A stretch of DNA of 64,000 bases from Pempheris klunzingeri (taxonomy: Eukaryota; Chordata; Actinopteri; Acropomatiformes; Pempheridae). Below are positions 8,673 through 38,907 of this stretch, in pieces. The stretch's first letter is position 1, and the number at the start of each line of letters is the position of its first letter. The notes beneath the pieces are model-generated. The model saw nothing but the letters and a program-made list of their open reading frames with translations, ran no database searches and was not told the DNA's origin. The translations under genes and the position numbers were made by a program. The DNA is taken from the NCBI RefSeq assembly GCF_042242105.1, contig NC_092035.1, positions 7,529,477 through 7,593,476 of the forward strand. Reading direction: 5' to 3'.

Positions 8673-8850
8673 TCTTCACCTCTTGCTGTATTTGCCGGTG
8701 AAACAGAGTGACTTTGACCCCGGCGGTCGGAGCCACTTGTCCCTGCACAGCTGGGTGCTGCAGTTCTTCTGCAGGGGGGAGCAGATTTGTGGTGTTGGAG
8801 TTTACTGGCACAAAGGGGGCAGCAGACGAGGACTCTCTCTTCATGAAAAC
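8673..8850 (-). pseudogene. nfkbiz-like exon fragment (copy 1)
   Basis: The minus strand reads VPVNSNTTNLLPPAEELQ then VAPTAGVKVTLFHRQIQQEV, ending where the Tc1 scrap begins. The more complete copy at 18784-19040 goes on into VSPELLTTQDGDGDTYL. That resembles the entry to the ankyrin repeats of IkB-zeta (NFKBIZ), where vertebrate proteins have a WQ-EQE helix and then DADGDTFLHIAVAQGR. The fragment is truncated and has no start codon, so it is a captured or stranded exon piece and not a gene. The assignment rests on remembered family sequence. Confidence 0.5.
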
Positions 8851-9473: not shown

Positions 9474-10880
9474 TATAAAAGTCTGAAGGTTTGACTCACC
9501 CGGCGCCAGTCGGCTCTTCTCCTTCTGCTGCAAACACCCGGACGCTTTTCTTGGGCTCGTTTTGTGCTTCATGCAGTCCTTCGGAGGGCCAGAGGAAGAA
9601 AACATCGCGGAGTTGGTTTTGGTATGCAAACAAATGGGTGTTCAGTAGCTAGCTAATTAGCTAACCATGCTAAGGTGCACAGCTGATACATTTTTCTATA
9701 TTGGTGGTTTCATTGTGGCCGATGAACCTGTTTGAGAACTAAAGTACCAGATGACTGTTGTAATAAACACTGATGGTTCTAATGTTCTGTGTTTGCACTA
9801 GAACATCTAGAAGTTCCTCGTCAGGCCTCTCAGCTGTTTTCTGTAACTCAGCAGCTGCAGCAGCAGGAGAGTTAAAGCTCAGGCTCAGTGTCACGTTCAT
9901 TATAGTCCTGTTTAATTGGTGAGCATCTGCAGTGAGTTTGCTGCTAATGACCGGACTGCAGGGTCAATAATCACTGATCAGTTTCACCTTGTGGCTAATC
10001 AGTGGCTAACATGCTGGCTAGTGTTAGCATGTAGCATTAGCATGTGGCCTGTTTGGAACGGATTAAATTAGTTTAAAGACCAAAAGCTAAGCATCAAATT
10101 GGTGGTTTATTGTGGCTGAGATCAGGTGCAGCTTCATCACATTTCGTCTGTGTTTGCAGGTGAACTTCATCTATAATGTCATTTATTTCCTTTTTACTTT
10201 GGTAAAGAGCTGTAGTTTTATTGTGAAAACCTCTTCCGTTGCAGGTGGCGTGTCCTGAGTCTGGGCTGAAGAACCTGTGACAGGAACAGCTTGTGGTAAA
10301 AACGCTCAACTTTACCTAGAACATCACATTAATGTGTTTAGACAGGAAATGTGAGCTTTTATTTTCTCCTCAGAGCAAACTAATAACTTTCATCCACATC
10401 AAACTGATGTTAATGGCACTAAATGTTGGACTTGGAGCACAAACATTGAAGATTTGTAAATTCTTGCAGTAGATAATTCTCTCTATTGGTGCTAGTTTGT
10501 AAAGGTAGAATCTAAAAGTTTCCAGGTGTCTGGTGGGAAGAGATGAGGAATCAGTAAATCTGAACACAGGATGTTGTCACGTTAAACTTTATTTAAAATG
10601 AAGAGAACACGTTTAACCTTCTGTCTGGTCACTCTTTGATCAAAGTAATGCTGTTTTTGTGTCTTCCAGGATGCAGCAGGGGAACCTGAATCAGCCGTGG
10701 ATCCAAACAGAAGGTCCTGTGGAAAAGTAGCAGACTGTATTAATGCATTCAACATGACTCCTCTGCAGCATCTTCATGTATCAACAAAAGAGAAAACTTG
10801 TTTTTTTTTGTGTGTTCCCAGGATGCACCAGGAGAACCTGAATCAACCGTGGATCCAAACAGCACTGATTTCTAAATAAA
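9474..10880 (+). other. Gene-like unit in right arm (promoter, exons, poly(A))
   Basis: Features in order: TATAAAA at 9474-9480; an ATG exon at 9571-9621 reading MQSFGGPEEENIAELVL, then a gtatgc donor; an exon at 10245-10295 between gcag and gtaaaa, reading VACPESGLKNL then TGA then QEQLV; an exon from 10670 after cttccag reading DAAGEPESAVDPNRR; and a terminal exon at 10822-10875 after cccag reading DAPGEPESTVDPNSTDF and a stop, with AATAAA at 10875-10880. Exons 1 and 2 join in phase 0. A near copy lies at 19641-21065 and mirror copies lie on the other strand. I do not recognise the product. It could be a decayed small gene carried by the repeat, or a domesticated transposon gene. Confidence 0.45.
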
Positions 10881-11554
10881 GACATGTAAAATGAAGTGCA
10901 AGTTGTTGTGTTTACTTTTTTGCTGCTGCAAGAGTTACTAGCTAATTGTCAGAAACTGGTTTGAGGTGAAAGTAGACCAGCAGCTCCTCTTCAGTCTTCC
11001 TCTGACAGGATCTGCCTCCATGTTCCTGCTGGATGTCCAGTGAGCCAAGCAGCACCTTCACTGTGTCTTGTATTTTAAATAAAAAAAAAAAAGTTGTCTA
11101 AATCTTGTTTCCTGTTTTCTATTGAGTGATTTTTGCCTTGGTTTAACTACACTGAAAAGGCAAAGCTGTGGATCCACCTATGGTCAGCATTTGTATAGCA
11201 CCTTTCTATGACCTCCTGCCTGAGGAATGACCCACAGCTGGCCCCATTTTATTTTGGAGCAGAATCCTGAATCAATCCAGAATATTTTACTGGTCCTGGA
11301 TTGAATGTAATGTGAAGGTGCTAATTTTTGAACCCAGCAATGGTGAGTTTAAGGGTAAATAAAATGCCAATTTGGAAGCAGGTAGAAAAATACCTGGTTG
11401 GAGCCTGAAAGTATTTTTTTCCTATAAATGTAAAAAGTGCATAATGAGCAAAATGGCTGCTTTTTTTTTTTAACGTGCTTTTTCAATAAAATGAGCTGCA
11501 TACCTGACTTCACCTTGGGGAAATAAATCAGCCCTCGCAAAACACCTTCTTTTG

Positions 11555-15002: not shown

Positions 15003-16739
15003 CTATAATGCAGCATTGTACAGTCTGACTGCAGTCGGGATGAAGGACCTGCGGAAGCGCTCCTTCTTACACCTGGGGTGTATCAGTCTGTGACTGAAGG
15101 AGCTGCTTAAGGCCCCCACAGTCTGATGCAGAGGGTGGGAGGTGTTGTCCAAGATGGAGGACAGTTTGGACAAGGTCCTCCTCTCTCCCACCACCTCTAT
15201 GGGGTCCAGGGGGCAGCCACAGACCGAGCCGGCTCTCTTAATTAGTCTGTTGAGCCTGTTCTTGTCCCGCTCAGAGCACCCCCCTCCCCAACACACCACT
15301 GCATATGAGACCACAGATGCCACCACAGTCTCGAAGAAGGTCCTCAGGAGTGGTCTGCTCACTCCAAAGGATCCTAGCCTCCTCAGCAGGTATAGTCGAC
15401 TCTGACCCCTCTTGTAGAGAGAGTCAGTGTTGTCTGTCCAGTCCAGTTTATTGTTAAGGTGAACACCCAGGTACTTGTATGTCCTCACTCTCTCGATGCC
15501 AAGTCCCTGGATGCTCACTGGTGCAGTGATGGAGGGTTTCTTGTGGAAGTCTTTCGTCTTGCTGGCGTTGACTAGGAGGTTGTTTCGTCCACACCAGCCG
15601 ACAAAGTCCGTGATGACCGTCCTGTATTCACAGTCGTTCCCCTCTGACACACACCCCACGATGGCAGTGTCATCAGAGAACTTCTGGAGGTGACAACTGT
15701 CTGTAGCGTACCTGAAGTCTGATGTGTACAGGGTGAAGAGGAAAGGTGACAGTACCGTTCCCTGGGGGGCCCCTGTGCTGCAAACCACCACATCAGACAC
15801 ACTGTCCTGCAGTCTCACATACTGGGGTCTGTCCGTGAGGTAGTCAGTGACCCATGCAGCCAGCTGGTCACTGACTCCCGCTCTCTCCATCTTCACCCTG
15901 AGCAGTGGAGGTAGGATTGTGTTGAAGGCACTGGAGAAATCAAAGAAAGTGATCCTCACAGTGCTTCCACTGCCCTCCAGGTGAGACAGGGATCTCTGCA
16001 GCAGGTAGATGACAGCGTCATCCACCCCAATTCCAGGCTGATATGCAAACTGCAGGGGATCCATGTCCAGGGGGCGGAGATGGGTTAGGACGATCCTCTC
16101 AAGTGCCTTCATCAGGTGAGAGGTTAAGGCCACGGGTCTGAAGTGGTTGGGCTCCTTGGGGCGCGAGGTCTTAGGAACTGGAACCACACAAGAAGTCTTC
16201 CACATGGCAGGAACTTTTTCCAGACTCAGGCTCAGGTTGAAGATGTAGCAGACCACCTGACAGAGCTGGTCTGCACAGTCCCTGAGGAGTCTGGAGCTGA
16301 TGCCATCAGGGCCCGTGGCTTTCCTGGCTTTGATCTTCTTCAGTTGACTTCTCACCTGATCAACAGTTGGTACGAAGAGAGGAGGGGGAGAAGGGGGAGG
16401 GGGAGGGGAGGGGGAGAGCTGCCAATGAGGTGGTGGGGGGTGGGGGGGTGGAGGTGAGAGGACCAGAGGTGGTTGTGGAAGTGAGGGGGAGGGTGAGGGC
16501 CCCGGAGATGGTGGTGGTGAGGAGCTGGGGGTAGGCTGGTCTGTGCTCAGGCTGGGGAGGGAGGGGGAGGGGGAGGGGGTGGGCCCATTATCAAATCTGT
16601 TGAAAAACAGATTTAGCTTGTTGGCCCAGTCTCTGTCTCCAGGTTCAGGGTCTCTCCTACTGCTTATCTCCTGCCCTGACATGGATTTGAGACCTCTCCA
16701 GACCTCCCTCGTGTTGCTCCGCTGAAGATGATCTTCCAT
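15003..16739 (-). CDS. LINE reverse transcriptase, 578 codons open
   Basis: This is the reverse transcriptase of the non-LTR element, which copies its RNA at a nicked target. Residues 1-50 hold NTREVWRGLKSMSG and NKLNLFFNRF, the linker after the missing endonuclease. Residues 55-125 are a Pro/Ser-rich stretch. The RT follows, with ATGPDGISSRLLRDC, then TFFDFSSAFNTI (first catalytic Asp), GAPQGTVLSPFLF and FSDDTAIVGCV (catalytic Asp pair). The conserved C-terminal part includes TYKYLGVHLNNKLDW and SFIPTAVRLYNAAL before the stop. The apparent start is simply the first Met in a 5'-truncated frame. No stop or frameshift was seen. The clade is L2/CR1/Rex-like; the exact family is not resolved. Confidence 0.92.
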   Translation of the reverse strand: MEDHLQRSNTREVWRGLKSMSGQEISSRRDPEPGDRDWANKLNLFFNRFDNGPTPSPSPSLPSLSTDQPTPSSSPPPSPGPSPSPSLPQPPLVLSPPPPHPPPPHWQLSPSPPPPPSPPPLFVPTVDQVRSQLKKIKARKATGPDGISSRLLRDCADQLCQVVCYIFNLSLSLEKVPAMWKTSCVVPVPKTSRPKEPNHFRPVALTSHLMKALERIVLTHLRPLDMDPLQFAYQPGIGVDDAVIYLLQRSLSHLEGSGSTVRITFFDFSSAFNTILPPLLRVKMERAGVSDQLAAWVTDYLTDRPQYVRLQDSVSDVVVCSTGAPQGTVLSPFLFTLYTSDFRYATDSCHLQKFSDDTAIVGCVSEGNDCEYRTVITDFVGWCGRNNLLVNASKTKDFHKKPSITAPVSIQGLGIERVRTYKYLGVHLNNKLDWTDNTDSLYKRGQSRLYLLRRLGSFGVSRPLLRTFFETVVASVVSYAVVCWGGGCSERDKNRLNRLIKRAGSVCGCPLDPIEVVGERRTLSKLSSILDNTSHPLHQTVGALSSSFSHRLIHPRCKKERFRRSFIPTAVRLYNAAL

Positions 16740-16762
16740 TTTCCTCCTGTAGTTGGCCTTGC

Positions 16763-17409
16763 ACTATTTATCACTGTTCCTCCACTCGTGTTCTCTTTTT
16801 CACTGTTTTGTCTTTTCATCTGTTCTCTCTTTATATTATCTCTTTACTTTCCACTTTGGATTTTACTCCCTACAGATTTATTATAGGAGGTATAATGGAG
16901 CTCCTTGTGCCACAGGTGCTGTTACCACAACACTTTGTGCTCCTGAATTATAAAAACGGACAAAAATTGGTCATTGTCATACACCAAGTCTATGATGGGA
17001 CAGTCAGGGGCAAGCAGCACTGGGAGTGACCACTGACCCTCCTTTTCTCTAAGCTCTAGGCTCAAACTAACTCCGGTGTCGCCTCCAGACTTGTGATGAA
17101 GCTCTCACAGTGGACCCTCACCTGCAGACTGAGGTAGTGGCCTTTCTCAGCACACACTTGCAAAGGAGAGCGGCCCCAGAGGGCAGCGAGCGCACGAGCC
17201 AGAGCCCGTCTGCCCTGAGCCACGGCTCTGTGGACAAATCTGGCAGTTTGAGAAGAAAGGACACAGTTAGATTACATCCACATGCAAATGACTTCAGACT
17301 GTTTATCCATGACTGTGAGCTGTTTCGGTGTTGGACTACGTCAGCCACTTTTAGTTGCCCATGTCAACCTCTTTGCTTGCTAACTAGTGTTCAGTCTTTA
17401 ATACCCTGC
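16763..17409. repeat. Tail block continuation, then unassigned sequence
   Basis: Positions 16763-16830 (actatttatcactgttcctc) continue the tail block after the LINE; the same sequence is at 54784-54840. From about 16850 to 17409 I see no recognisable gene. Positions 17110-17400 may be decayed 5' sequence of the next LINE, but no motif proves it. Confidence 0.4.
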
Positions 17410-18783: not shown

Positions 18784-19040
18784 GATACGTGTCCCCATCT
18801 CCATCTTGCGTGGTCAGCAGCTCAGGGGAAACTCCTCCGACTCTCTTCACCTCTTGCTGTATTTGCCGGTGAAACAGAGTGACTTTGACCCCGGCGGTCG
18901 GAGCCACTTGTCCCTGCACAGCTGGGTGCTGCAGTTCTCCTGCAGGGGGGAGCAGATTTGTGGTGTTGGAGTTTACTGGCACAAAGGGGGCAGCAGACGA
19001 GGACTCTCTCTTCAGGAAAACTCAGAAACAGTTACACAAG
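18784..19040 (-). pseudogene. nfkbiz-like exon fragment (copy 2, more complete)
   Basis: The minus strand is open through VPVNSNTTNLLPPAGELQ, then VTLFHRQIQQEVKRVGG, then VSPELLTTQDGDGDTYL, and is cut off at the end of the Tc1-like element. IkB-zeta is a nuclear ankyrin-repeat regulator of NF-kB. This order (glutamine-rich helix, then D-GDGDTYL at the first ankyrin repeat) matches my memory of that family. The rest of the ankyrin domain is absent on the other side of the Tc1, where a LINE tail lies. It is a stranded fragment in a repeat, not a gene. A different ankyrin protein is possible. Confidence 0.5.
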
Positions 19041-19640
19041 CACCCCCACTTTACTGAAACTAATTAAACATTTGAAATGAGATCACATTTGCCAGCTAGC
19101 CTACTGAACGCCCACTATTCTACATCTTTTCAGCTATGGGCTATTCAGACTTGATGTCAGGTATACAGCTACAGCCCACTACTTTTCAATTTCATTAAAC
19201 CCGTTGCAGTGACAAGACATTCATTCATTCATTCCTGCAACCAGACGTGTCAAACAAGACAACAACATGAGTTCATGCTTATTTTCTATTTCATTGTGTC
19301 AGCTTGAAACCATACAGCCATGTAGTGTAGTGAACAGGAATGAGGATGGAGAATCAAAGCCCAAACAGTCCATGAACCAAGAAATGACACGTCTCCAGTG
19401 CACTTCATCTTATTGACCACTAGATGTCCTACTGGAGCGCGGTGTCATTGAAGCCTCGAGTAATTAACCATTTTTCAATTAAGTGTCGAACTTCAACAAA
19501 GCCTCGATCAGCCATCACTATGTCCTCTGTACCTGGACTGTACCACCTCACTTCCTGTCTTCAGAGCGTCTCCCCTACTACATAATGGTATGATCCTAAT
19601 GTGTCCTCCCACGTGATTTGCCGCATGGTGTGTCCATCAC
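19041..19640. repeat. Centre of the composite repeat (copy 2)
   Basis: Near-identical to 8870-9473 of block 1, including a short (ATTC)n run, acagctacagcccactactt and the cctcccacgtgatttgccgc segment ahead of the TATA box. It has no gene. It serves as upstream sequence to the gene-like unit that starts at 19641. Confidence 0.75.
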
Positions 19641-21065
19641 TATAAAAGTCTGAAGGTTTGACTCACCCGGCGCCAGTCGGCTCTTCTCCTTCTGCTGCAA
19701 ACACCGGGACGCTTTGCTTGTGCTTCATGCAGTCCTTCGGAGGTCCAGAGGAAGAAAACATCACGGAGTTGGTTTTGGTATGCAAACAAATGGGTGTTCA
19801 GTAGCTAGCTAATTAGCTAACCATGCTAAGGTGCACAGCTGATCCATTTTTCTATATTGGTGGTTTCATTGTGGCCGATGAACCTGTTTGAGAACCAAAG
19901 TACCAGATTACTGTTGTAATAAACACTGATGGTTCTAATGTTCTGTGTTTGCACTAGAACATCTAGAAGTTCCTCATCAGGCCTCTCAGCTGTTTTCTGT
20001 AACTCAGCAGCTGCAGCAGCAGGAGAGTTAAAGCTCAGGCTCAGTGTCCCGTTCATTATAGTCCTGTTTAATTGGTGAGCATCTGCAGTGAGTTTGCTGC
20101 TAATGACCGGACTGCAGGGTCAATAATCACTGATCAGTTTCACCTTGTGGCTAATCAGTGGCTAACATGCTGGCTAGTGTTAGCATGTAGCATTAGCATG
20201 TGGCCTGTTTGGAACGGATTAAATTCATTTAGAGACCAAAAGCTAAGCATCAAATTGGTGGTTTATTGTGGCTGAGATCAGGTGCAGCTTCATCACATTT
20301 CGCCTGTGTTTGCAGGTGAACTTAATCTATAATGTCATTTATTTCCTTTTTACTTTGGTAAAGAGCTGTAGTTTTATTGTGAAAACCTCTTCCGTTGCAG
20401 GTGGCGTGTCCTGAGTCTGGGCTGAAGAACCTGTGACAGGAACAGCTTGTGGTAAAAACGCTCAACTTTACCTAGAACATCACATTAATGTGTTTAGACA
20501 GGAAATGTGAGCTTTTATTTTCTCCCACATCAAACTGATTTCTTCCTGAACTACTTGTTTCCAGGTAGAAAACACACTAACAGTTAATGTTAATGGCACT
20601 AAATGTTGGAATTGGAGCACAAACATTGAAGATTTGTAAATTCTTGCAGTAGATAATTCTCTCTATTGGTGCTAGTTTGTAAAGGTAGAATCTAAAAGTT
20701 TCCAGGTGTCTGGTGGGAAGAGATGAGGAATCAGTAAATCTGAACACAGGATGTTGTCACGTTAAACTTTATTTAAAATGAAGAGAACACGTTTAACCTT
20801 CTGTCTGGTCACTTTGATCAAAGTAATGGTGTTTTTGTGTCTTCCAGGATGCAGCAGGAGAACCTGAGTCAGCCGTGGATCCAAACAGAAGGTCCTGTGG
20901 AAAAGTAGCAGACTGTAGTAAGTATTAATGCATTCAACATGACTCCTCTGCAGCATCTTCATGTATCGGCAAAAGAAAAAACTTGTTTTTTTTTGTGTGT
21001 TCCCAGGATGCACCAGGAGAACCTGAATCAACCGTGGATCCAAACAGCACTGATTTCTAAATAAA
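19641..21065 (+). other. Gene-like unit, copy in block 2
   Basis: It has the same order as 9474-10880: TATAAAA at 19641-19647; an ATG exon at 19727-19777 (MQSFGGPEEENITELVL) with a gtatgc donor; a middle exon at about 20401-20451; a DAAGEPESAVDPNRRSC module from 20848 to 20917 followed by gtaagt, a consensus donor lost in block 1; a terminal module ending in a stop; and AATAAA at 21060-21065. The first exon is open in both plus-strand copies, with one residue changed (Ala to Thr). The full splice pattern cannot be proved, since some exon phases do not join. Confidence 0.45.
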
Positions 21066-22247
21066 GACATGTAAAATTAAGTGCAAGTTGTTGTGTTTAC
21101 TTTTTTGCTGCTGCAAGTTACTAGTTGTCAGAAACTACTTTGAGGTAAAAGTAGACCAGCAGCTCCTCTTCAGTCTTCCTCTGACAGGATCTGCCTCCAT
21201 TTTCCTGCTGGATGTCCAGTGAGCCAAGCAGCACCTTCACTGTATCTTGTACTTTAAATAAAAAAAAAAAAAGTCTAAATCTTGTTTCCTGTTTTCTATT
21301 GAGTTTTTTTTTTTTTTTTTTTTTGCCTTGGTTTAACTACACTGAAAAGGCAAAGCTGTGGATCCACCTATGGTCAGCATTTATATAGCACCTTTCCATG
21401 ACCTCATTCACACACTGACCCATGGAGCTGGAACCCCGACCTCCTGATGGAAGGATGAGCCACAGCTGGCCCCATTTTATTTTGGAGCAGAATCCTGTGT
21501 TTTACTGGTGCTGGATTGAGTGTAATGTGAAATTGTATGTGTAAACATAAGACCACTTTAGAAGCAAGTAGAAAATACAAAGCCAAAAGAAACATTGTTT
21601 GAGTTTGAAACACTTTAATTTTTTAAAAGTGCATAATGAGCAAAATGGCTGCATAAAATCTTACTCCAACTTTGGGAAACACTGGTGGAGATAGACCATC
21701 TTGCGCTGTCGCATTTAGAAGATCTTCAGGGGTTTTTATCTTCATTTGGGAAAACCATCTGGAAAAAACAAACACAAATGAACCTCCAGACACTTTAAAA
21801 GTGAAAGATGTTAATCAGGTCATAGAATCACAAGCTAGCTCCAACAATAATTTATAATATATCAAATAGTAGAAATCAATGATTTAAGTTTTAATTAAAG
21901 TTACTAACCATTGTGCTTCTTTCCCAACACATACTGGCAGGAAGACTCTTTCTCTGCTCCTCAGCAGTGAACACCAGCCCATCTGAAGCATGAAAGGAAA
22001 AAGAATCAATCAATAAGTGATCAGAAGTTACAGCTGTATCACCTTCATGTTGAACAAGGCTGCACACATCTGATGTAGCAACTTGCTGTTAAACTTCAGT
22101 AACTATTTGAGACGGCAAATAAAATATTTTGACATTAATGGTGATTACTGACATTTCAATACAATTAGATTTCAAGGATTCAAGGAACGTTGTCATACCA
22201 ACACACGTTTACACACGAGGAGGTATGAAAATACGTTCTCAGGTCCG
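21066..22247 (-). repeat. Right arm of block 2 with LINE 3' remnant
   Basis: Positions 21066-21850 match 10881-11775, including part of the SINE body at about 21720-21800. Positions 21960-22080 match the distal arm, with its inner part deleted. Positions 22170-22247 are the inverted 3' end of the LINE seen at 43172-44030, inserted at the same point of the arm as there. That implies the insertion happened before blocks 2 and 3 separated. Confidence 0.65.
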
Positions 22248-22249
22248 AA

Positions 22250-22560
22250 TGTAGCGGCTGTTAGCATGGTTAGCTAGCGTTAGCTAAGTGGCTAATTAGC
22301 TAGCTTGTTACCACCATGTGTTTGTTCTCTTTGTGTTTGTATTCGGCCATTCAGCCTCAGACTAACCGCATTAACCAAACCCAACTCAGCGTCTTCGTGA
22401 TGTTTTCCTCTGGTAGTTTTCTTCTCCTCCTCCAAACATGTTTTTGAAGCAGAAAAACGAGCTGCAGAAACACGAGCAGCAAAAAACGTGCCAACGATCC
22501 GCTCAGGCTCTTAAGTCATCTGCTGCTGCGGAAGTGTGCTGACATCATTTCCTGTGCTGC
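22250..22560 (-). repeat. Tail block, copy in block 2
   Basis: Shares gcctcagactaaccgcatta, taaccaaacccaactcagcg and cgctcaggctcttaagtcat with 14060-14220 and 54370-54560. The minus strand again holds a first-exon-like stretch ATGTTTGGAGGAGGAGAAG at about 22440, with stops soon after. Positions 22561-22760 are GC-rich and hold nothing I recognise. Confidence 0.5.
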
Positions 22561-22760
22561 CAATCAGGCGACTTTCCTAATTTCCTTAACTAGCAGCAGG
22601 TGTGACCGTTAGCCCCTCCCCCTCCCCCTCCCAAAGGTCTCGCAGCAGCCTCGCGCAGCCGCAGAGAGGACCGAGGAGAGCCACTCCACTCCTGCTCATG
22701 AATCGCGCACGCGCAGAACCGCCGCTGATGTAACACTAAAATAAATCATTGCATTTGAGC

Positions 22761-23713
22761 TAGAGATGGGATTTATGGCTCTTTGAAGGGAGCCGGATCT
22801 TGAGGAGCCGTTCCTTTCAAAGAGCCGTTCAAACGACTGACTCGTTGTTATATTTACTTATTTATTTATTAGAAGTCAACCAGGGGTAACTTGTTTTCAT
22901 CAAGGAAACAATCACTGGTAGCAGTTGTAAAATAAGATTTGGTTCAGAATAATTCAAATTTATACATATCTATTCTGAAATATTGATTATAATTTCATTT
23001 GGCTTGTGTTTTCAGTGTAATCATTCCATAAGATGGTGCCATACCAACATGCTTTGACAGTGAGATCACTATTTAGAATTTTCCCCTCAACTAAAAAACT
23101 TTGTGGCACAATAAAAACTATGCAGGCTGCAGATAACTTCCATGCAAAATAACTTTAGTGTGAAATTTTCCACACATGAACATTTTAACAATACAGAAAT
23201 AAAAATAATATAAATAAAACTAGAATAGAAATTAGGACATGATACAAATGTGAATGCATAATTGTACTAAACTACCTGGTGTGTGTTCACCTGAACTACT
23301 TTACAAACAGGAACTCAGCTCCTTGACTCGAATCCACATCAAAACAATGGAAACAATAACAAATAACATTTCTTCAATCGTTAATATCTCCTGCTCCCTG
23401 AATGTAAATCTCTTCAGTCCAGTCGGGCGGCACTCACTAATATCTCCTCCCCTAATGCTGCGCATCTGTAGCTGCGTTTACGTCAATGGAGCGTGCTGTG
23501 GACGACTCAAACTCATGTCATTAGTCGTTCAGGTGAAGGCAGCGTGGACAACTCAGACTCGTGGGGCACACAGGTGACACATGAAGGCAGAGCAGGCAAT
23601 TTGCATATAAGAACGGTTCGCAAACGAACGGCTCGCAACTGCGAATCGGTTCTCATCATTCACTTAAAAGAACCGTTCAAAGACTCGACTCGTTCGCGAA
23701 CGTCACATCTCTA
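22761..23713. mobile_element. Non-autonomous hAT transposon with 8-bp target duplication
   Basis: ATTTGAGC stands immediately on both sides (22753-22760 and 23714-23721). The ends are TAGAGATG and CATCTCTA. Subterminal repeats of AGAGCCGTTC and GAACGGCTCGC type lie at both ends, as in many hAT elements. It is 953 bp long with no transposase. The tandem duplication of the boll region begins inside it, at 22909, so only its right part is repeated at 26766-27570. Confidence 0.9.
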
Positions 23714-25198
23714 ATTTGAGCCACACAGCCTCAGTCACTAACTCACCTCGTCCACTGTGTGTGTGCCTCTCTGTGACATAAGCTAATCTAGCTAACTAGC
23801 TCATCATGTCTCAGTCTAATGTGTATGCTCAAAAACAGAGAAAGGAGTGGGAATCAAACTGAATTCAAAGGCTGTTTGAAGCCGTTTATTGGAGACCATA
23901 CACGGGCATGTTGCCTGGATTGTAAGGCTGATTTCTACGCCAAACTTTGTGATAAATGTTGGTCGCAGATGTGGGTGACCAGCGTTTCAGCTTTACCTTT
24001 ATAAATACAGCATGTTTAGAAAACAACATTCATTATCATTATTTCCAAAATTGCATTTTTGGGCCTTAACTACAGCACCACCATGTGGCTGACTGGGCTC
24101 ATGTTTTTGCACATCATTTTCAGTCATTTCAGCCTATTTCATCTTTCTAGATCATTTAAGCACTTTGGAAGACAACAAATAAATCTTATAAACCAGGAGA
24201 AACTCGATGGAGTTCTACCCCTTCTGGGTTTGATCTCCAATTAAAGGTTGGTTGACAAGATGGCGGCGACTTATGCATAATATCTTTCTTACAACAGATT
24301 TCCCCCTCTGATATTTGTGTGTTTGGTTATAAAAAACAGGCCTTTTACTTTTCCAGGATCATGTTGCAGAACAAAGGGCGTCATTCCTTCAGCTCTCTGA
24401 GGATACCGTGGGTAAACCTGGTGCACCGTGGGCTCTACCAACTGTAAAAGTATAGGAAGAGACCAACGTGCGCTCCAGTTAAGAACAAGTGTGGATGTTT
24501 AGACATAAAAAAAGCAGAAAAGGAAGTGTTTGCATTTGCAAGCTCTTAAATCAGACAACATTTAGTTGTAAACTCAATATTTGTCTCTCCACCAACAAAC
24601 TTCTACATTCAACAAACATTCTGTATTCCAAACAAGTTAAACGAGTTGCACTTACACGTGTTTTGAATTTCCGTGGTGAATCTGTACCTCTGGTGTGACG
24701 CCCTCCAGGACCGACAGGGGAGGCTGGACAGAGCCTCCATCGGCAGAGTGGTAAAGATGTTCTGACTGCTGGGAGTACACGGCTGGACTGGAGGGCATGG
24801 GTGACTGGACAACAAAACACTGATGAAAGATGAATTGGCCAAAATCACCTGGACTAAAAAGAATGAATGGCTTTATTTTACCTACCTCGAAGATATTCCA
24901 CTGATACTGGTTTGGGAAACACTGGAGAGAGGGTGATGTAGGAAGACAGCAGAAATAAAAGTCAAACCCCTGCTGTGTTTCTTAAATAGTGACATGATGA
25001 GAAAGCAACATATCGCTGAAGGGCTGAGCTGATAGTGGTGATAAACAGGCCGATTGCACTGAGGAAGCACTACTGGAGGAGCAGGCTGCTAAAGAATAAA
25101 CGTACATAAATCACACATAACGGAATATTCATATCATTCATATTCATATCATCAAACTAGTCCTATATCTGTTTCTATTTCTTTTACTTGTTTCAAAG
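22909..25198. repeat. Tandem duplication, unit A (downstream copy)
   Basis: This unit recurs at 26766-29069, 3857 bp further on. I saw only a few base differences and one 14-bp insertion (in the other copy, near 28417-28430). It spans most of a hAT element and the last four recognised boll coding exons. The near-identity suggests either a very recent event or two haplotypes assembled in tandem. Confidence 0.95.
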
Positions 25199-26708
25199 AA
25201 AAGGCAGCAAGAAAACTCAAGCTCTTGCTAGGCCTGCTGTCATAGCTTCAGAAATTGGTATGTGAAAAGCATATGAAATGATAAGCAGATTTTTTAAATC
25301 AACAATGGTTAATTATTGTTATTTATGTGTAGTGTTATATGGGTATGAGTAAGAACTGACAGGCCAGTGGTGGGCAGGAGGGCTCATGTTGGGGCAGTGG
25401 GAATAGGACACCCCATCGCAGTAGGTATTGGGATAGCCTGTGGATGTGGTCAGGCACAGCGCCCCACAGGACGTCAGCAGAGGTATGGCAGAGTCAAGGC
25501 CGGCTACGGGGGTGCTCTTAACTAGACAAACAAAGAAACCACAATACAGTAAACCTGTGCCTTTTAATGGGCTTTTTTAAAGCTTGTTTTATTTTAAAAA
25601 TCGCGGCACACTTACTTTGTCCTGAGGCTTGCATCTTGCGGACAGCCTGACCAATGCTGAGCTTCTTGTCTTTGAAACAAATTCCATTACCCTTTAATAT
25701 AGCAGCCACATTAGACTAGAACGTGTGGGATATACTCCGCATTATCATACTGAACATGTCCAGGACATTTAGTTGCAAGATACTTTAATGGCCTGCTTCT
25801 ACTCACTTCATGAAGGACTTTCAATGCATCATCTTCACTTTCAAATGCAACAAACCCATACCTGTCCAAAGAGACAGAATCAAAGTAAACCGTTTTAACT
25901 TTAACAGTAAATCTGTGAATAATGTTGGAAATCAAAGGACAGAGAATTATCTCACCCTTTTGAAGTTCCTGAGCGATTGTTCACAATCTTCACCTCTTTC
26001 ACTGCACCATGTTGAGAGAAGACATGTCGGAGGTCACCCTCATTAACCTTCATAAAAATGCACAAACACACACATATATATTTTTGAATGTTATCACCCC
26101 ACAAGATGGTTGCTGTTTGACTTCATTCATTTGTTCCACAATGAACAATTTCAGATTATTGTGCAGCGTTAAAAGATGAGGCAACAGGAGAAAGTGATAA
26201 GTAACTTCAGTTTGACAAAGCCAAGAAACAAGTGGTTCCCAATCGACACTTTTGGTGCTTTTCCATAACACAGTTTTAGCACTACTCTACTCGAGTCGAG
26301 TCGAGTAGAGGCGAGTAGGTGCTAGTGGAAAAGCGCCATTTGTTACCTGTAAAGCAGAATTTAGAAGAACACTAAAAACTGAGTTTTGATTCCATTAAGT
26401 AGGTAATGTCTGGTCTTGACAATACATTTTTTTTACGATTTTGGCATTTTCTAGGTTTATTAGCCAGAGGAGAAATGACAGGAATCTCATCCTGACATTA
26501 GATTTTTGACATGCTTTGCTGCCCTCTAGTGTCTACTCTACAGTAAGACACTCAGTCTGGGCCAAGTTGCAGCTCTCACCTTGCAGTCAATTCCTCAGAC
26601 GAAAATCTGATTAGGGATAGCAGTGCCAAGACGGGGGCTGTGGCGAGTTAGGCTGTCATCGTGGTGTTCTCGAGGTAACACACCAAGGCTGGAGGAGCTG
26701 CTGCCATT
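24349..26708 (-). CDS. boll: boll (boule-like RNA-binding protein), partial, with in-frame TGA
   Basis: Boule is the founding DAZ-family translational regulator of meiosis, acting in germ-cell cytoplasm through one RRM. Exons in transcript order (plus coordinates): 26580-26708 (ends IPNQIFV, TGA, GIDCK; RNP-2), 25956-26047 (NEGDLRHVFSQHGAVKEVKI), 25807-25861 (YGFVAFESEDDALKVLHE; RNP-1), 25616-25691 (CFKDKKLSIGQAVRKMQ), 25361-25521 (LCLTTSTGYPNTYCDGVSYS), about 25012-25088 (QPAPPVVLPQCNRPVYHHYQ), 24886-24921 (CFPNQYQWNIFE), 24658-24819 (HSADGGSVQPPLSVLEG) and 24349-24441 (VEPTVHQVYPRYPQ). Phases join except after YHHYQ, where no in-phase GT donor is seen. The first (Met) exon and the short last exon (TVWSIHY in mammals) were not found. 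The TGA replaces an RNP-2 Gly (26595-26597). Homology is secure; function is doubtful. Confidence 0.88.
25199..26497. other. boll RRM region not present in the upstream copy
   Basis: This 1299-bp stretch holds the second to fifth recognised boll exons (RRM and first C-terminal exon). It lies between units A and C and has no counterpart in the second copy, where A' joins C' directly at 29069/29070. A short Harbinger MITE (26253-26338) lies in one of its introns. Confidence 0.9.
26253..26338. mobile_element. Very short Harbinger MITE in a boll intron
   Basis: It keeps both ends of the element at 4731-5193 (TGGTGCTTTTCCATAACAC and CTAGTGGAAAAGCGCCA), with nearly all of the interior gone and tcgagtcgagtcgagtagag in the middle. 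TTT flanks each side. At 86 bp it is essentially a hairpin. Confidence 0.82.
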
Positions 26709-26765
26709 CTAAGAGAGAAGAGAAGAACATGACGAGGCATCACTGTCATACTTGGGTCACTAGGA
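26498..26765. repeat. Tandem duplication, unit C
   Basis: It holds the boll exon at 26580-26708 with its flanking intron ends and is repeated at 29070-29335 (offset 2572). At its right end it joins unit A' at 26766; in the other copy the sequence continues aaacaacacaagcatcatct, the original flank. Confidence 0.93.
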
Positions 26766-29069
26766 CAATCACTGGTAGCAGTTGTAAAATAAGATTTGGT
26801 TCAGAATAATTCAAATTTATACATATCTATTCTGAAATATTGATTATAATTTCATTTGGCTTGTGTTTTCAGTGTAATCATTCCATAAGATGGTGCCATA
26901 CCAACATGCTTTGACAGTGAGATCACTATTTAGAATTTTCCCCTCAACTAAAAAACTTTGTGGCACAATAAAAACTATGCAGGCTGCAGATAACTTCCAT
27001 GCAAAATAACTTTAGTGTGAAATTTTCCACACATGAACATTTTAACAATACAGAAATAAAAATAATATAAATAAAACTAGAATAGAAATTAGGACATGAT
27101 ACAAATGTGAATGCATAATTGTACTAAACTACCTGGTGTGTGTTCACCTGAACTACTTTACAAACAGGAACTCAGCTCCTTGACTCGAATCCACATCAAA
27201 ACAATGGAAACAATAACAAATAACATTTCTTCAATCGTTAATATCTCCTGCTCCCTGAATGTAAATCTCTTCAGTCCAGTCGGGCGGCACTCACTAATAT
27301 CTCCTCCCCTAATGCTGCGCATCTGTAGCTGCGTTTACGTCAATGGAGCGTGCTGTGGACGACTCAAACTCATGTCATTAGTCGTTCAGGTGAAGGCAGC
27401 GTGGACAACTCAGACTCGTGGGGCACACAGGTGACACATGAAGGCAGAGCAGGCAATTTGCATATAAGAACGGTTTGCAAACGAACGGCTCGCAACTGCG
27501 AATCGGTTCTCATCATTCACTTAAAAGAACCGTTCAAAGACTCGACTCGTTCGCGAACGTCACATCTCTAATTTGAGCCACACAGCCTCAGTCACTAACT
27601 CACCTCGTCCACTGTGTGTGTGCCTCTCTGTGACATAAGCTAATCTAGCTAACTAGCTCATCATGTCTCAGTCTAATGTGTATGCTCAAAAACAGAGAAA
27701 GGAGTGGGAATCAAACTGAATTCAAAGGCTGTTTGAAGCCGGTTATTGGAGACCATACACGGGCATGTTGCCTGGATTGTAAGGCTGATTTCTACGCCAA
27801 ACTTTGTGATAAATGTTGGTCGCAGATGTGGGTGACCAGCGTTTCAGCTTTACCTTTATAAATACAGCATGTTTAGAAAACAACATTCATTATCATTATT
27901 TCCAAAATTGCATTTTTGGGCCTTAACTACAGCACCACCATGTGGCTGACTGGGCTCATGTTTTTGCACATCATTTTCAGTCATTTCAGCCTATTTCATC
28001 TTTCTAGATCATTTAAGCACTTTGGAAGACAACAAATAAATCTTATAAACCAGGAGAAACTCGATGGAGTTCTACCCCTTCTGGGTTTGATCTCCAATTA
28101 AAGGTTGGTTGACAAGATGGCGGCGACTTATGCATAATATCTTTCTCACAACAGATTTCCCCCTCTGATATTTGTGTGTTTGGTTATAAAAAACAGGCCT
28201 TTTACTTTTCCAGGATCATGTTGCAGAACAAAGGGCGTCATTCCTTCAGCTCTCTGAGGATACCGTGGGTAAACCTGGTGCACCGTGGGCTCTACCAACT
28301 GTAAAAGTATAGGAAGAGACCAACGTGCGCTCCAGTTAAGAACAAGTGTGGATGTTTAGACATAAAAAAAGCAGAAAAGGAAGTGTTTGCATTTGCAAGC
28401 TCTTAAATCAGACAGATGTTACAACATAACATTTAGTTGTAAACTCAATATTTGTCTCTCCACCAACAAACTTCTACATTCAACAAACATTCTGTATTCC
28501 AAACAAGTTAAACGAGTTGCACTTACACGTGTTTTGAATTTCCGTGGTGAATCTGTACCTCTGGTGTGACGCCCTCCAGGACCGACAGGGGAGGCTGGAC
28601 AGAGCCTCCATCGGCAGAGTGGTAAAGATGTTCTGACTGCTGGGAGTACACGGCTGGACTGGAGGGCATGGGTGACTGGACAACAAAACACTGATGAAAG
28701 ATGAATTGGCCAAAATCACCTGGACTAAAAAGAATGAATGGCTTTATTTTACCTACCTCGAAGATATTCCACTGATACTGGTTTGGGAAACACTGGAGAG
28801 AGGGTGATGTAGGAAGACAGCAGAAATAAAAGTCAAACCCCTGCTGTGTTTCTTAAATAGTGACATGATGAGAAAGCAACATATCGCTGAAGGGCTGAGC
28901 TGATAGTGGTGATAAACAGGCCGATTGCACTGAGGAAGCACTACTGGAGGAGCAGGCTGCTAAAGAATAAACGTACATAAATCACACATAACGGAATATT
29001 CATATCATTCATATTCATATCATCAAACTAGTCCTATATCTGTTTCTATTTCTTTTACTTGTTTCAAAG
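26766..29069. repeat. Tandem duplication, unit A' (upstream copy)
   Basis: Second copy of 22909-25198. The junction at 26765/26766 fuses 'ctagga' of unit C to 'caatcactgg' from inside the hAT element. The original left (aaggaaacaatc) and right (taggaaacaaca) contexts share the 8-mer AGGAAACA, a likely microhomology for the duplication. It carries a private 14-bp insertion at 28417-28430. Confidence 0.95.
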
Positions 29070-29280
29070 TTAGATTTTTGACATGCTTTGCTGCCCTCTA
29101 GTGTCTACTCTACAGTAAGACACTCAGTCTGGGCCAAGTTGCAGCTCTCACCTTGCAGTCAATTCCTCAGACGAAAATCTGATTAGGGATAGCAGTGCCA
29201 AGACGGGGGCTGTGGCGAGTTAGGCTGTCATCGTGGTGTTCTCGAGGTAACACACCAAGGCTGGAGGAGCTGCTGCCATT
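28206..29280 (-). pseudogene. boll: boll partial duplicate lacking the RRM core
   Basis: Transcript order: exon 29152-29280 (with the same in-frame TGA, 29167-29169), then directly about 28883-28959, 28757-28792, 28529-28690 and 28206-28298. The RNP-1 exons and the first C-terminal exon are missing because 1299 bp are deleted at 29069/29070. It lies upstream of the fuller copy on the same strand. A transcript from the original promoter would therefore meet this incomplete exon set first and could splice into either copy. No functional RRM can be encoded by this copy alone. Confidence 0.85.
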
Positions 29281-29335
29281 CTAAGAGAGAAGAAAAGAAC
29301 ATGACGAGGCATCACTGTCATACTTGGGTCACTAG
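29070..29335. repeat. Tandem duplication, unit C'
   Basis: Copy of 26498-26765 with about one base difference (agagaagaaaag against agagaagagaag). It is followed by unduplicated flank. Confidence 0.93.
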
Positions 29336-29570
29336 GAAACAACACAAGCATCATCTTGTATGACAGCAAGCAAACCACAGAGCAAGAACAAAGCAAATGA
29401 AATACATGCTGGTTTTTTTTATAGATACTGTGGGGGAAAAGGCAATAACAGCTTCTTCTTGATCTGTCATTGAAGTCCAGCAAACTAAACAGTAAGCAGT
29501 AGCTCCTTAAGTCGTTTAAGTCAGACAAAGTTGATGCACCTGCAGCTAGTAGATAGAATCTAGGCTATAT

Positions 29571-29840
29571 GATCAACTAAGACATTTGTATATGTCTTTG
29601 CACGAGAGTGTGTTCAGGTTATCGGAGAAGGAAGGCTTTCCTATTAATTGTGTTTCTTGTCAACTTTTGTTTATGCAGACAGAACAAAGATCATAGCCTG
29701 TGCTGTTCACCAGTCATCATACCATACTGCACTGGAAAAATAAATGTCAGCCTCGCCCATCTAATTCAAGCATTCAAAGTTATGTTTTGTTTGTATCTGA
29801 ACAGTCTGTTGCTATGGTAACCACTACTGGCACCATCTAT
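29571..29840 (+). repeat. Dispersed 270-bp duplicate (copy 1)
   Basis: gatcaactaagaca to ctactggcaccat recurs at 33251-33525 at very high identity. The second copy has an 18-bp addition (tgtggctttgagcgttcg, about 33265-33282), and this copy has a few extra bases near 29803. I do not recognise the family and saw no terminal repeats. It lies in boll's 5' flank or first intron. Confidence 0.85.
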
Positions 29841-30216
29841 GCTGTCTATGAAAAAAACCTAACAACAATCCCCAATAGTAACTCTTACTGTATAGTCAAA
29901 GTTAGCATATTTGATGACATTAAACATGTCCACGATATAACCAACACCAACTGTCAATGTCTGTGCAATGTTTCACTTGAGATATCAATTAAAACATGGA
30001 TAAACTATCAATCAAAAATTATTAGCATGGGAATACCAACCACCAGCAAATACAACGCATGAAACATGCCTTAGATCACCTCATGTTCAGGCCAAACATC
30101 ACACTGAATTTGAGCTCATCTGACGTTATATAGCTACCAAATACCGTTAAATGCTACACTGACTTGGCTAGTCAAGGTTGTATGAGGCTAACATCGGTTT
30201 GCTAGCGCGAATTCCC
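29841..30216. other. Unique sequence, nothing recognised
   Basis: AT-rich sequence in the presumed boll 5' flank or first intron. An open stretch (29700-30062) runs out of the repeat without any family resemblance, and I do not call it a gene. The boll start exon was searched for here and not found. Confidence 0.5.
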
Positions 30217-30720
30217 ATAAATCAGAATCAGAATCAGAATCACTTTAATAATCCCCAGGGGGAAATTGCTTTTTGTTACACAGCTCCAAAAGAATAAGAC
30301 TAACCTTCAAACACAAAAGTAAATCAGGTGAGTCCAGAGTCCAGGGTCCTCTCCTCTCTGGTGAAACAGTTCACGTACCCGAGCGATGGCGGAGTGGATG
30401 ACGTCACACGCCGAAGTCGGGTTGGCAGAAGGAGGAACGTAAACAGTCACCATGACAACATGTGAAAACTCCCGTGGCAGGCAAGACCAACAGCAAACAG
30501 TTCAATGTCCGGGCTCCTTGATAGTAACATGAGCAGCATCAGTTTGGAAGCCACCAATGGAAACATCGTCGTCGGGAATGTCCTGATGCAGCCATGTCTC
30601 CAAAAAGCACACCAGACTACACTCCCGGTGCTCCATCTGACTCCTGGCTAACGCTGTTAGCTCCTCCATCTTGTTTACCAGCGATCTCACGTTGCCCATA
30701 GTAACGATGGACTACGATGG
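30217..30720 (-). mobile_element. LINE remnant: endonuclease start fused to 3' tail
   Basis: The minus strand encodes MGNVRSLVNKMEELTALARS and LVCFLETWLHQDIPDDDVS, the N-terminus of a LINE APE endonuclease (30520-30699). Only about 300 bp later it reaches the 3' tail aagcaatttccccctgggga and (GATTCT)n at 30217-30250. The RT and most of the endonuclease are missing, so this is an internally deleted element and not the usual 5'-truncated one. Confidence 0.78.
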
Positions 30721-33250
30721 ACATAGTAACGATAAACAGCTAACATCAACAAAAAGACTTCTAGTTGACGGCTTTGACGGTTCACCCACCGTGTTCTGAC
30801 TCTTCTTTTCCACACCCACGTGCTCCTGCTTCACTTACTGGCTTTTAAAAGACGTATGTTGGTTGTCAGGGCAGGTGAATCATGGCCAATTAAGCTAGCG
30901 GCTAAGCTAACGTTAACTACATAGACACCTCCGCTAACGGCCTTGCTAACTACCCTTCTTTCTGGATGTTACTCCTCAGGGTTTTTAATAAAAAATCTGG
31001 TATCTAGCAGCAGGTTGTACCTTGAAAAGTATTTATTAATTACATATTCACCCCGCAGATGTCTTCTTCTTTCTGCCCCCTTTATTTTCTTTTGGAAATG
31101 TGCGTCGTTGTAGTGGCCACATCATCACTTCAATGGAGATCAGCAGGAATTAAACGCGGCTTAATCGAGTTGGGAACCTTCAGTGAAGTGAAAAACGTGT
31201 TAACTTACATTTAAATTGTAGTGAACGCTTACACAAATTTACAATAATTATAACAAGGGACGGAAAGTACAATAAATCTGAAGCAGAGTTAAGTTTTCAG
31301 ATTTATTTGTGCGGTACTACATACTTTCCACAGAGCGGCGCCATTTCTCTGTGAATACAAATGTCCAAGTATTTCACATTCTGACTGATCCTGAAAATAG
31401 GTTTCTGCTTTTTCCTACTTGACACATAAGTGATGCTTGACATATTTGAGGACAAATCTTATGCTCAGTCTCTACTGTGTGTTTTAAGAGTTCTCAAAAG
31501 AATACTTGACCTACGGACAACCACAAATGTCTTTCAAGAGTTCTTGCTTTTCACCTAAACTGTAGATTTTCTAATTTATTCCCTTTAATATTATGAGCTT
31601 TATATCTATAAACTTTTAGATTAAGATAGACGGAGCTCACAGGTGGGAAAGACCATGATCCATGTCACATTGGTAGTTTTCCACTCTCCAGCCTCATGGA
31701 GTAACCATGGATGCTACATTCAAACCTCATACAGCTATAACTTCTCTATGACTGGCAACAAAATGCTCCAAAACACTTTAATTTGCATCTTACGCCCCCC
31801 CACCTCATCCTCCTCTTCCCTCAAACCACAACAAAGCAACTGAACAAAGAGAAAAGCACCCAATTCATAGCTGACAATACCAATAATGAATGAACAACAT
31901 GTAATAGGGGCAGCAGTATCTCAAATGTTCTCAGGTTCCTCTAGAACACATCCATATTATTGTGGATACAGTTGTAAACCTTCTTTTCAGAGAGTCATTT
32001 TCCCTCAGCCTTTTGCACATTTCCCATCATTACAACCTCCTTTCTCCGGATTGCTTCTCCTCATCTGAGTAATGTGGGCCACACCATTACTTGTCATTCA
32101 TTTCCAGCTCTTGTTAATTGTTTGGTGAATTTGCCAATGAGGTCTGACTGTGTAAAATGAGAAAGATCCTCAAGATCGTTTAAGACACAAATGCTGTCGG
32201 GGAAATTTGCCTTTCTGTTTGAGTTCCCACTGCAAACAAAAGAGCGAAGTGTGAAGCTTTTACTTTTTTTTTGTCTTAGCTCTTTGTATTGACTAGTTTC
32301 TACCTTGATTTCCTGCAATATTACATTCTTCTTCTTTGTCTTATTATTAATGTCTTTCATGATCATTTCAGAATCTGATTGATTGCAAATCAGTTTTTCT
32401 CCCAAAGGACACACTTTCAGGTTGCCACAAGTGAAGTGAAGTGTTAAATGGCCCTAAACTGTCTTTAAAATGTAAGTGTATCTGTTCTGTGACACAGTAA
32501 GGGTTATCATTTCTGAATAGCTCGTGCTACTGGCTCCTGTTGTTGAAGTTCTGATCGGATATAACATAACAGTGTATTTCCCGAAATGCCTTTAAATCTT
32601 GAGGCTCACAGGGTAAATAAAAACATAGAGAATAGGTGAAATATCAGGTCAAATGTGCATGTTCCATCAAGAAAAAAACAGTTGGTCAGTTAGTCAGACA
32701 GTCGTGGAGACAGAGGTTGATGAAAAATGAGCCGAAACACAAGGGTTTGACTCTGGCTCTGTAATTACTCTACAAATCTCTGATTTCCCCTCCTTCATCT
32801 CCAGACTATTTATAGCTGCTGCATTCCTTTCAGAGAATAAAATGATCTCCTTGAGACAGTACAATGCCAGAAATAACAGGTTTGGACAAACATTTACTGA
32901 GGCGTGGTGGGCCTGGCTGACCATTACTGAGTTCCACTGTGGTTTCAGTCTACTGTTTTTTCCCCTCATCCATTTAATCATCTGTTATTCTAAATGGATG
33001 TGGGTTTGCTGGGAAAGGTGACGAGTAAGATGTGACGGTTCAACAAAAGCGCTAGTACGAACAGAGATTAAATCATTTTATGGTCTAGCAGAGCACAGCA
33101 AATTTTTCTTACTTGTGCAGGAGTGGGCAAAAAGTACATGTTAGCACGCACCTTCAATGTCTGTGAACACTCAGGTGACTACTGGGCTCAGACCTCCCTC
33201 TGTGCTCCATATTGTTTATGTAACAGTCATAGGATTTCACTTACAAATAT
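30721..33250. other. Gene-poor unique sequence
   Basis: I see no convincing exon, RNA gene or mobile element. Positions 31290-31345 contain a gagcggcgccat motif that might lie near a promoter, but nothing confirms it. Longer open stretches (such as 32094-32414 and 32694-32981 on the minus strand) have no splice context or recognisable motif. Confidence 0.5.
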
Positions 33251-36190: not shown

Positions 36191-38140
36191 ACCATCCAGC
36201 GGTAGGTCAGTTTAATATTTCATTTGGCTGATGGACGGCGTCTGCTGCTCTGTGAGCCAAACATCATTACAACACACTAGGTGACTTAGCTCTAATTAGA
36301 GCTGAAAATCACATTAAAGTTGCTCCTGTGACAGAAGAAGTAGCTCACCTTTTCCCATAACTGCTGTGGGTTGGTTTTTGAAATGCACGAGGCCCCGGCA
36401 GCTACGCTATTAGACACATAGGTAGAATTAGGTAAAAATAATTACAAACCAAGTGTGATAATTCTTTCTATTACACAGTTCACATGATAACCAAATAGCA
36501 CAACGGTACTTCTAGATTTGGATATTATCGTATTTGATCGTGATACAATTAATACTATTTTGTCCTTTTATTAAATTCTGATGCAACGTAGAAATAAAAC
36601 AAAACCATTACACTTTTACTAGTGATCCTGTGCATCCGGAGTGTTGTGAATGTGTGTGTTTATGTGTATAATTTATGAATGATGAGGGAGTAAACAGCTT
36701 CCACTTTGGTAACATGGTTTTGCACTTTGAATGCATGTGTGTGTGTGTGTGTGTGTAAATGTATGCAGTTCTGGTGTGGATGAATTAACAGCCTGTTGTA
36801 TTCTGTATTCTGTTTTTTTGTTTCCATCTTTCTTTCTTCGTCTTTTGTTTGTCTGCTGGTGGTGTGCCAGAAAAGGTAAAGATTCAAAGTATTACTATTT
36901 TGAGTTTAGGCAATATATTGTAGCATTGCTGTATTGCAATATTAAATAAGTAAGACATAAATACATACTTGCATGCTGTGGGAAACAAAGTTGTAAAAGA
37001 AATTATTAAAGCTCAATTTATTATTAGGAAATGTTACTGTGCTGATTTCATTTTACTTGATTATAGATAAGATGTAATTCCAAGTAGTTCTAGGTATGTT
37101 CTGGCAGTCCAAGTAGTGCTGTTGATATAGATTGCTGAAGCAAATGTGCCTCCACATCACCACAAGGACTATTACATCAAATACAAAACACCAACTAACC
37201 ACTTTATTTCTCATCTGCAGCGTCAGTGACTCTTATTTTAACAAGCTAAACCAATGGAAATCGGCTGTGGCATCCAACAACACACAGAAAGCCCTGATAA
37301 GCATTGAGAGGGAAGATTTCATTCAGAAGCAGGTAGAATGAGAATTGGAGATGACACCACAAGCTGAAAGAAAAGTGGGACAAGAAACAAGAAATTCAAT
37401 TATTGGGGCGGAGCAAAACATAAATTAGCAAACTGGTACTGACTAGTTTTTCTGAATATAATTAAGATCCAAAGGAAAACTCCACAAGTTCTGAATAGTT
37501 TAGTTTATGGAAAGTCTCAGGTCAGGTCTTGTTAAATTCCAGAAATCTATCTGGCGAGTTCCTTTCCCATTAAAGGTCCTCCCTCTTGTGATCAAGGGCT
37601 TCTTCTTCATTAACTTCCTCTCATATTCTCTTTATCTGGATGAAACTGTTTTGCATTGCATTCCTTGTTGGAAACATGAACTTTTAAAACACCATCAACC
37701 ACCTCCTCCAACCCCCGTCTGTTCCACTGCACAGCAACATGCTTCACCCAAGGTGGGAGTCAGCGATGTCCTTGTTTTCTCCTCCCTCCATCCCTTCATC
37801 CCTTGCTGTGTTTGTGCTGAACAGATGCCAGCACTGGGTAAAGTCCTCTCCAGAGGGGCTGCCAGCAGCATATTGGTTTATAATTAATGAAATTAGGGCC
37901 GTTGTCTGCCGAGGAGGCTTCAGTCCCAGCGTAGGATAGACTGCTGCATGCCAGGAAGACAGATGACAGGAGAGCTTTAAGAGGACAGACATAGAGAGAC
38001 AGATGTAGTTGGATCATTGTCGATCCACTATAAGACCACTGAACTCATTCAGGATCTTCATCTTCTTTATCAGTTTGTCTTGTTTTAAAAATGGGATCTG
38101 GTCCAGTCAATGACACTTGTAGCGTTCTATAATCTTTAAG
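36191..38140. other. Unique sequence with one exon-like stretch
   Basis: The only segment worth a note is 37214-37341. It follows an acceptor-like ctcatctgcag and is open through FNKLNQWKSAVASNNTQKAL and SIEREDFIQKQVE to a TGA. I cannot match it to a family. A lone terminal exon is possible but unproven. The rest has no recognisable feature apart from a short (TG)n at 36736-36756. Confidence 0.4.
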
Positions 38141-38907
38141 ATCCATCCATCCAATGTCTATACCGCTTATCCTTAAGGGTCGCAGAGGGGCTGGAGGCAA
38201 TCTAAACTTTTTTTGTTGCACCTAACAATGTCAGCAAATCTCTATATATCAAAAATCTATTGATTCCAGTGAATTCATCTGCTGGGAAGAAAATGCAGCA
38301 TTGATTGTTTGGCAAGTTGTTTTTTGACAATGTTGATCTTTGAGGTAACAGAGAGGAAGAAGAACCCAACATGGAGGAGATATATATAATATAGTAGCAT
38401 ATTGGCTTGATTGCACTGTCCTCTTTTAACCGTCTCTGTCAGAGAATAACCTGCTGTGCTAAAGAATAATAGTTTGCATCTTGAATGAATATCATTGTGC
38501 TGCTCTCTGGTCTGACTGGAGATGGGACAGTCAGAAAAACACAGGGAGACCTCGCTTGAGGGCATGCAAACCAGAAAATGTTCAATCCATGCCTGAAAGA
38601 ATGTTGTTTTCCTGTCAAAAACGTGTGCTCCTCTACAATATGATGATGCTATGACCATCCATTTTAATCCATGTTTTCTTCTCAATATTTAATAGCAGAA
38701 GCAGCTTGAATGTTTCTATGGAGTTGTAGACGCTCCACTTTTCCTCAGGGTCACCGCTTTCCTGCTAAATATTTCTCAACATAAAAACACAAAAGTGTCC
38801 TCGACAGCTCCACAATACGACAGACTACTGTTTTGAGGTGGGGTACACCGTGGACTGGTTGCCAGTCAATCACAGGGCTGACACATAGAAACAGTCATGC
38901 ACAAACC
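38141..38907 (+). repeat. Common teleost repeat split into two halves
   Basis: Positions 38141-38202 (atccatccatccaatgtcta, taccgcttatcc, gggtcgcagaggggctgga) and 38835-38907 (gtggggtacaccgtggactg, cagtcaatcacagggctgac) are normally adjacent halves of a widespread fish interspersed repeat. About 630 bp of unrelated DNA lies between them, without obvious transposon ends. Confidence 0.65.

Follow-up and report, generated by a model that had tools for sequence, protein, structure and literature searches.

Boule genes have been described in teleosts such as medaka (Obol) and stickleback, and the gene described here resembles them in having an RRM followed by a DAZ-type region. Medaka Boule is reported to be 42% identical to human BOLL (PMC2698988), compared with ~45% for our gene. 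The same account describes one intact medaka gene of 295 aa (PMC2698988). In contrast, our fish has four gene copies, all of which bear a stop codon.

Boll is reported to have no zebrafish orthologue while it is present in other bony fish (PMC6609395). Zebrafish offers another likeness, as a teleost that has dazl but no functional boll. It also differs, because no orthologue is reported there, whereas in our fish the apparently dead gene persists almost complete and in several amplified copies. Loss of boll in a teleost has a precedent in zebrafish, while it would be unusual for the gene to have died recently and then been amplified.

Primate DAZ genes derive from DAZL, and are expressed and coding. 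The copies studied here, on the other hand, derive from boll and are broken. What they share with the primate Y DAZ cluster (PMC2322974) is that a DAZ-family gene has been amplified by segmental duplication on one chromosome. Judged by titles and the opening lines of abstracts, the literature that we searched holds no account of a fish boll that is dead or amplified, and the text of PMC8273981 contains zero occurrences of boll, boule or dazl.

A boule gene with a stop codon in RNP-2

Our window is a stretch of 64,000 nucleotides (positions 7529477-7593476 of contig C24) of the 646-Mb genome assembly of Pempheris klunzingeri, which has 439 contigs; C24 measures 14.9 Mb. The window contains a chain of nine exons that runs on the minus strand from 26708 to 24349 and amounts to 849 nt with a single stop. 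The nine-exon model is 45% identical to human BOLL over 251 aligned positions. A chance open frame is countered by this identity and by the length of a chain with one stop.

The chain starts with the RNP-2 exon (26580-26708, 129 nt), followed by eight exons for which the numbering 4-11 is our own. Next come exon 4 (25956-26047; VNEGDLRH..SKG, with the RRM_1 match), exon 5 (25807-25861; YGFVAFESEDDALKVLHE), which holds RNP-1, and exon 6 (25616-25691; GNGICFKDKKLSIGQAVRKMQASGQ). Downstream follow exon 7 (25361-25521), exon 8 (25029-25088), exon 9 (24886-24921; CFPNQYQWNIFE), exon 10 (24658-24804) and exon 11 (24349-24441; LVEPTVHQVY..DPGK), all on the minus strand. A regular-expression search with tail motifs recognised no coding exon beyond exon 11. 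The RRM is spread over four exons, the number described for boule, where it spans exons 2-5 (PMC2904765), and the introns may lie at the boule positions too.

With an X put at the stop, the model matches RRM_1 with an E of 1e-16 at residues 35-103. A PDB search returned mouse Dazl RRM entries at ranks 2 to 4, behind a multi-RRM poly(A)-binding protein at rank 1. Within the RRM, the gene shares 53 of 81 residues with human BOLL, but 39 of 79 with mouse DAZL and 38 of 80 with the fish's own dazl. Sequence comparison therefore places the gene closer to boule than to dazl. Thirty-nine RRM positions are invariant among human BOLL, mouse DAZL and the fish's own dazl; the window gene keeps 32 of these and departs at seven, including the stop. 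Part of the seven may be usual in boule of fishes. Because most of the invariant positions are retained, any loss of boll is recent, and the RRM was largely kept until lately.

The minus-strand translation of the RNP-2 exon is NGSSSSSLGVLPREHHDDSLTRHSPRLGTAIPNQIFV*GIDCK, with the stop at codon 38. The exon reads IPNQIFV-TGA-GIDCK and has an acceptor AG and a donor GT at its flanks. Its TGA (26597-26595) takes the place of the first Gly of FVGGID in human BOLL, mouse DAZL and the fish's own dazl. This agrees with the initial annotation, which had reported an in-frame TGA within the RNP-2 motif of boll, and an identical exon at 29152-29280 (minus strand) carries the same TGA at 29169-29167. The exon had also been described as fitting its neighbours in perfect phase. 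Its join to the next exon downstream is indeed of phase 0; a regular-expression search with motifs found no first coding exon upstream of it, and only the downstream phase could be checked. Skipping this 129-nt exon would keep the frame, but it would not rescue the gene, as RNP-2 and the start of the RRM would be lost.

A second lesion concerns exon 8, which ends in YHHYQ. The absence of an in-phase GT donor, pointed out earlier, is borne out: the donor is CT in all four gene copies, and the second copy in the window is identical there. It is the one exception among the 18 splice-site dinucleotides listed, of which 17 are canonical. The loss of this donor alone need not kill the gene, because exon 8, with its 60 nt and phase 0-0, could be left out without a frameshift. 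Exon 10 has the in-phase donor GTGTAA; by eye, a GTAAGT located 2 nt further downstream looks stronger, and its use would cause a frameshift.

Amplified copies on contig C24

Two copies of the gene lie side by side in the window, both on the minus strand. Copy 1 (22908-26765) consists of segments A, B and C, and copy 2 (26765-29337) of A' and C'. Segment A (22908-25198) is repeated at 26765-29069. The next stretch, 29070-29337, repeats segment C (26498-26765), while segment B (25199-26497), which contains RRM exons 4-7, is missing from copy 2. The duplication proposed in the initial annotation therefore exists, although not as one simple block. Given the minus-strand orientation of boll, copy 2, which has no exons 4-7, is on the upstream side. 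The two copies differ by four single-base differences and one 14-base indel in ~2559 aligned bases. At three of these four sites, copy 2 carries the base of a distant copy, located at 7.41 Mb (site 23619) or 6.55 Mb (sites 23885 and 24290) of C24. Exchange between amplicon copies is hence likelier than simple duplication on the spot. The four distant loci described below rule out that one local tandem duplication is the full account. The window also contains a 2.6-kb direct repeat to the left of boll (8670-11215 and 18841-21405; 95.6% identity).

At the scale of the genome, boll occurs at four loci, spread over 1.5 Mb of C24 and in both orientations. Four copies of the gene have each of the nine exons that we recognised. 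They diverge pairwise by 0.10-0.34%, and the copy at 6.55 Mb is the most distant. Exons 4-7 were found at four places, all on C24 (4 of 4 candidates scored). The RNP-2 exon is more numerous. Where two copies had been noted earlier, a DNA search of the genome gave eight matches (8 of 8 candidates scored), all on C24 and all identical, including the TGA, so that the second stop-bearing copy stands and the total rises. Their positions are 6549946, 8073285, 8076934, 8080590 and 8084240 on the plus strand, and 7411927, 7556056 and 7558628 on the minus strand, the last two being those in the window. An intact coding frame with RNP-2 was found in none of the eight exon copies.

The shared amplicon measures roughly 35-43 kb, an extent limited by the fact that only fetched stretches were compared. 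In the window it covers 1-42279, which is shared with the other C24 loci with gaps, rearranged pieces and insertions. Pieces of the window from -803 to 42279 match C24 at 8.05-8.11 Mb (inverted), pieces from 6360 to 42279 match 6.53-6.58 Mb (mostly inverted), and pieces from 7462 to 41542 match 7.39-7.43 Mb (direct). A probe at 37100-38400, ~10 kb upstream of the RNP-2 exon, was found at at least four places, all on C24, among the best 40 of 1300 candidates, which were scored. Sex-chromosome ampliconic gene families are marked by highly similar segments that occur several times on a single chromosome. We observed such segments at four loci, all on contig C24, which may be a whole chromosome or part of one.

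A ~6-kb insertion, placed at two different sites, lies upstream of the exon in the three loci at 6.55, 7.41 and 8.08 Mb and is absent from the window. The insertions are bounded by ~1-kb direct repeats that are 99.7-99.8% identical within each insertion, and from these repeats we infer that they are LTR-type elements. Their sites correspond to 29641-29645 and 29760-29897 of the window (loci L014, L013 and L009-L011). At C24 8065396-8084182 (L009-L011), four units spaced by ~3.65 kb each combine a stop-bearing exon with part of the LTR-type element, and three of these units, at 8.07-8.08 Mb, lack the remainder of the boll gene. The window itself is rich in transposable elements. Their frames include 15003-16763 (minus), 46524-47831 (plus) and 61675-62319 (plus), with RVT_1 reverse transcriptases and a DDE_1 transposase of 435 codons.

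Probable loss of boll before amplification

Both the TGA and the CT donor occur in all four gene copies. Because each lesion is found in every copy, both probably predate the copying, or else were spread by gene conversion. The initial annotation considered the TGA older than the duplication in the window; this holds, and extends to all four loci. Apart from the TGA, three of the four copies keep an open frame, while the 6.55-Mb copy has a second stop in exon 7 (TGC to TGA).

The four copies show 17 single-base differences. Four of them fall within the 849 exonic nt, a rate of 0.47%, and the remaining 13 within 3009 nt of other DNA, a rate of 0.43%. Exons and other DNA have thus changed at similar rates since amplification. 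None of the four exonic differences is silent: the 6.55-Mb copy has K>T, P>S and C>stop, and the 8.08-Mb copy has E>K. Without constraint, 26% of changes are expected to be synonymous, so that four out of four is not significant (P about 0.3). With a total of just 17 differences, the exonic changes are compatible with neutrality without proving it.

A six-frame protein search of the 646-Mb assembly with the 283-residue model, in which the best candidates were scored, revealed no intact boll elsewhere. It gave 100 matches (97 of 97 candidates scored). Those on C24 were 62-97% identical and all at the four loci, whereas those on other contigs reached at most 43%. The dazl gene served as a control. 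It was found with the mouse Dazl RRM at C16:15019743 (15.02 Mb), and the boll query also reached it, at C16:15019734-15019862, with 40% identity. Since dazl was found at such a low identity, an intact boll should be far easier to detect. The RRM of dazl (locus L035) lies on four exons with AG/GT edges, reads FVGGID and contains no stop. A TAA counted inside its six-frame match falls outside the aligned dazl exon bases, which are stop-free.

Our results therefore support the earlier suggestion that boll is decaying in this lineage: stop and lost donor are present in all four copies, one copy has a second stop, and no intact boll was found while dazl was. In the assembled genome, boll is very probably a pseudogene that was killed before it was amplified. 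Since every copy bears a disabling lesion and we found no functional boll beside them, it would qualify as a unitary pseudogene, within this assembly and the sensitivity of a search that had dazl as its control. On the other side of the balance, two shared lesions are few, and the splice sites are mostly canonical.

The course of events may have been as follows. A Gly codon in RNP-2 would have mutated to TGA, and the donor of exon 8 became CT instead of GT. The dead locus would then have been copied, within an amplicon of roughly 35-43 kb, so that it now lies at four places on C24. Later local rearrangement might have produced the partial copy in the window, which lacks RRM exons 4-7, and the three extra stop-bearing exons at 8.07-8.08 Mb, while the copies appear to drift without visible constraint. 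Translation of a transcript would yield the 37 codons of the RNP-2 exon plus any upstream codons, and stop before the RNA-binding domain, so that presumably no functional Boule protein is made. Its loss may be tolerated through dazl or a relaxed need. For mice that lack Boule, compensation of a similar sort has been suggested in meiosis (PMC2904765).

Alternative explanations and significance

The main rival explanation is that the species does have an intact boll, located outside the assembly, for example on the second sex chromosome or within an assembly gap, and that the C24 copies are dead duplicates. An assembly of 439 contigs may omit sequence, for instance the other member of a sex-chromosome pair. 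In favour of this explanation, all copies that we found are on one 14.9-Mb contig, in a recently amplified and transposon-rich region. Moreover, HSPE1 lies near BOLL in the human genome, whereas the sole genome match to Cpn10 (hspe1) is one exon at C10:706024-706167 and not on C24. The old neighbourhood of boll may therefore not be on C24, and the lone match on C10 would hint at a move. Yet, the idea of C10 depends on that single Cpn10 exon, and a protein search of the whole 646 Mb that reached dazl at 40% identity met no second boll. We consider an intact gene outside the assembly unlikely.

A related but speculative scenario, which we regard as rather unlikely, is that C24 is a young sex-linked ampliconic region where boll moved in, multiplied and decayed, with dazl taking over its role. 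Boll would then have been amplified like primate DAZ, but when already dead.

Assembly error is a much weaker explanation. It would require that haplotypes or misjoined reads made the copies, or that a shared base error made the TGA. The copies indeed differ by only 0.10-0.34%, which is within the range of allelic variation in fishes. However, they are up to 1.5 Mb apart, in both orientations and with the ~6-kb insertions at two different sites. There are no N bases in the window or in any fetched locus, and the partial copy in the window matches the 7.41- or 6.55-Mb base, not that of its neighbour, at three of four differing sites. A random base error is ruled out as the source of the TGA by a stop at the same base in all eight exon copies. 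We find an artefact highly improbable.

Equally improbable is that TGA-bearing transcripts serve as non-coding RNA in the germ line, for example as antisense RNA or piRNA precursors. The amplicon copies lie in both orientations on C24 within transposon-rich DNA, which would suit such a use, but an obvious target is missing, since our search revealed no intact boll.

Least credible of all is the unusual decoding that the initial annotation had put forward, for which we considered selenocysteine insertion, stop readthrough and RNA editing to Trp as ways to a full Boule protein: in three of four copies nothing else interrupts the frame past the stop, but Rfam gave no SECIS match at an E of up to 1 on either strand of 20000-31500 (the sole match listed there being MAT2A_C at 22778-22825, under its gathering score), the TGA is followed directly by GGA and not by the readthrough context CTAG, human BOLL, mouse DAZL and the fish's own dazl all have Gly at this site, exonic and other change rates are similar, and the lost donor and the second stop of the 6.55-Mb copy would be left unexplained.

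If boll was killed before it was amplified, as we think very probable, the consequences reach beyond this locus. A fish with a just-dead, nearly whole boll would offer a direct test of boule function in teleosts and of its replacement by dazl. Amplified dead copies would also show that a fertility gene may be present in many copies without selection for its product. Boule is a very old fertility gene of sperm and egg, and this fish appears to have lost it.
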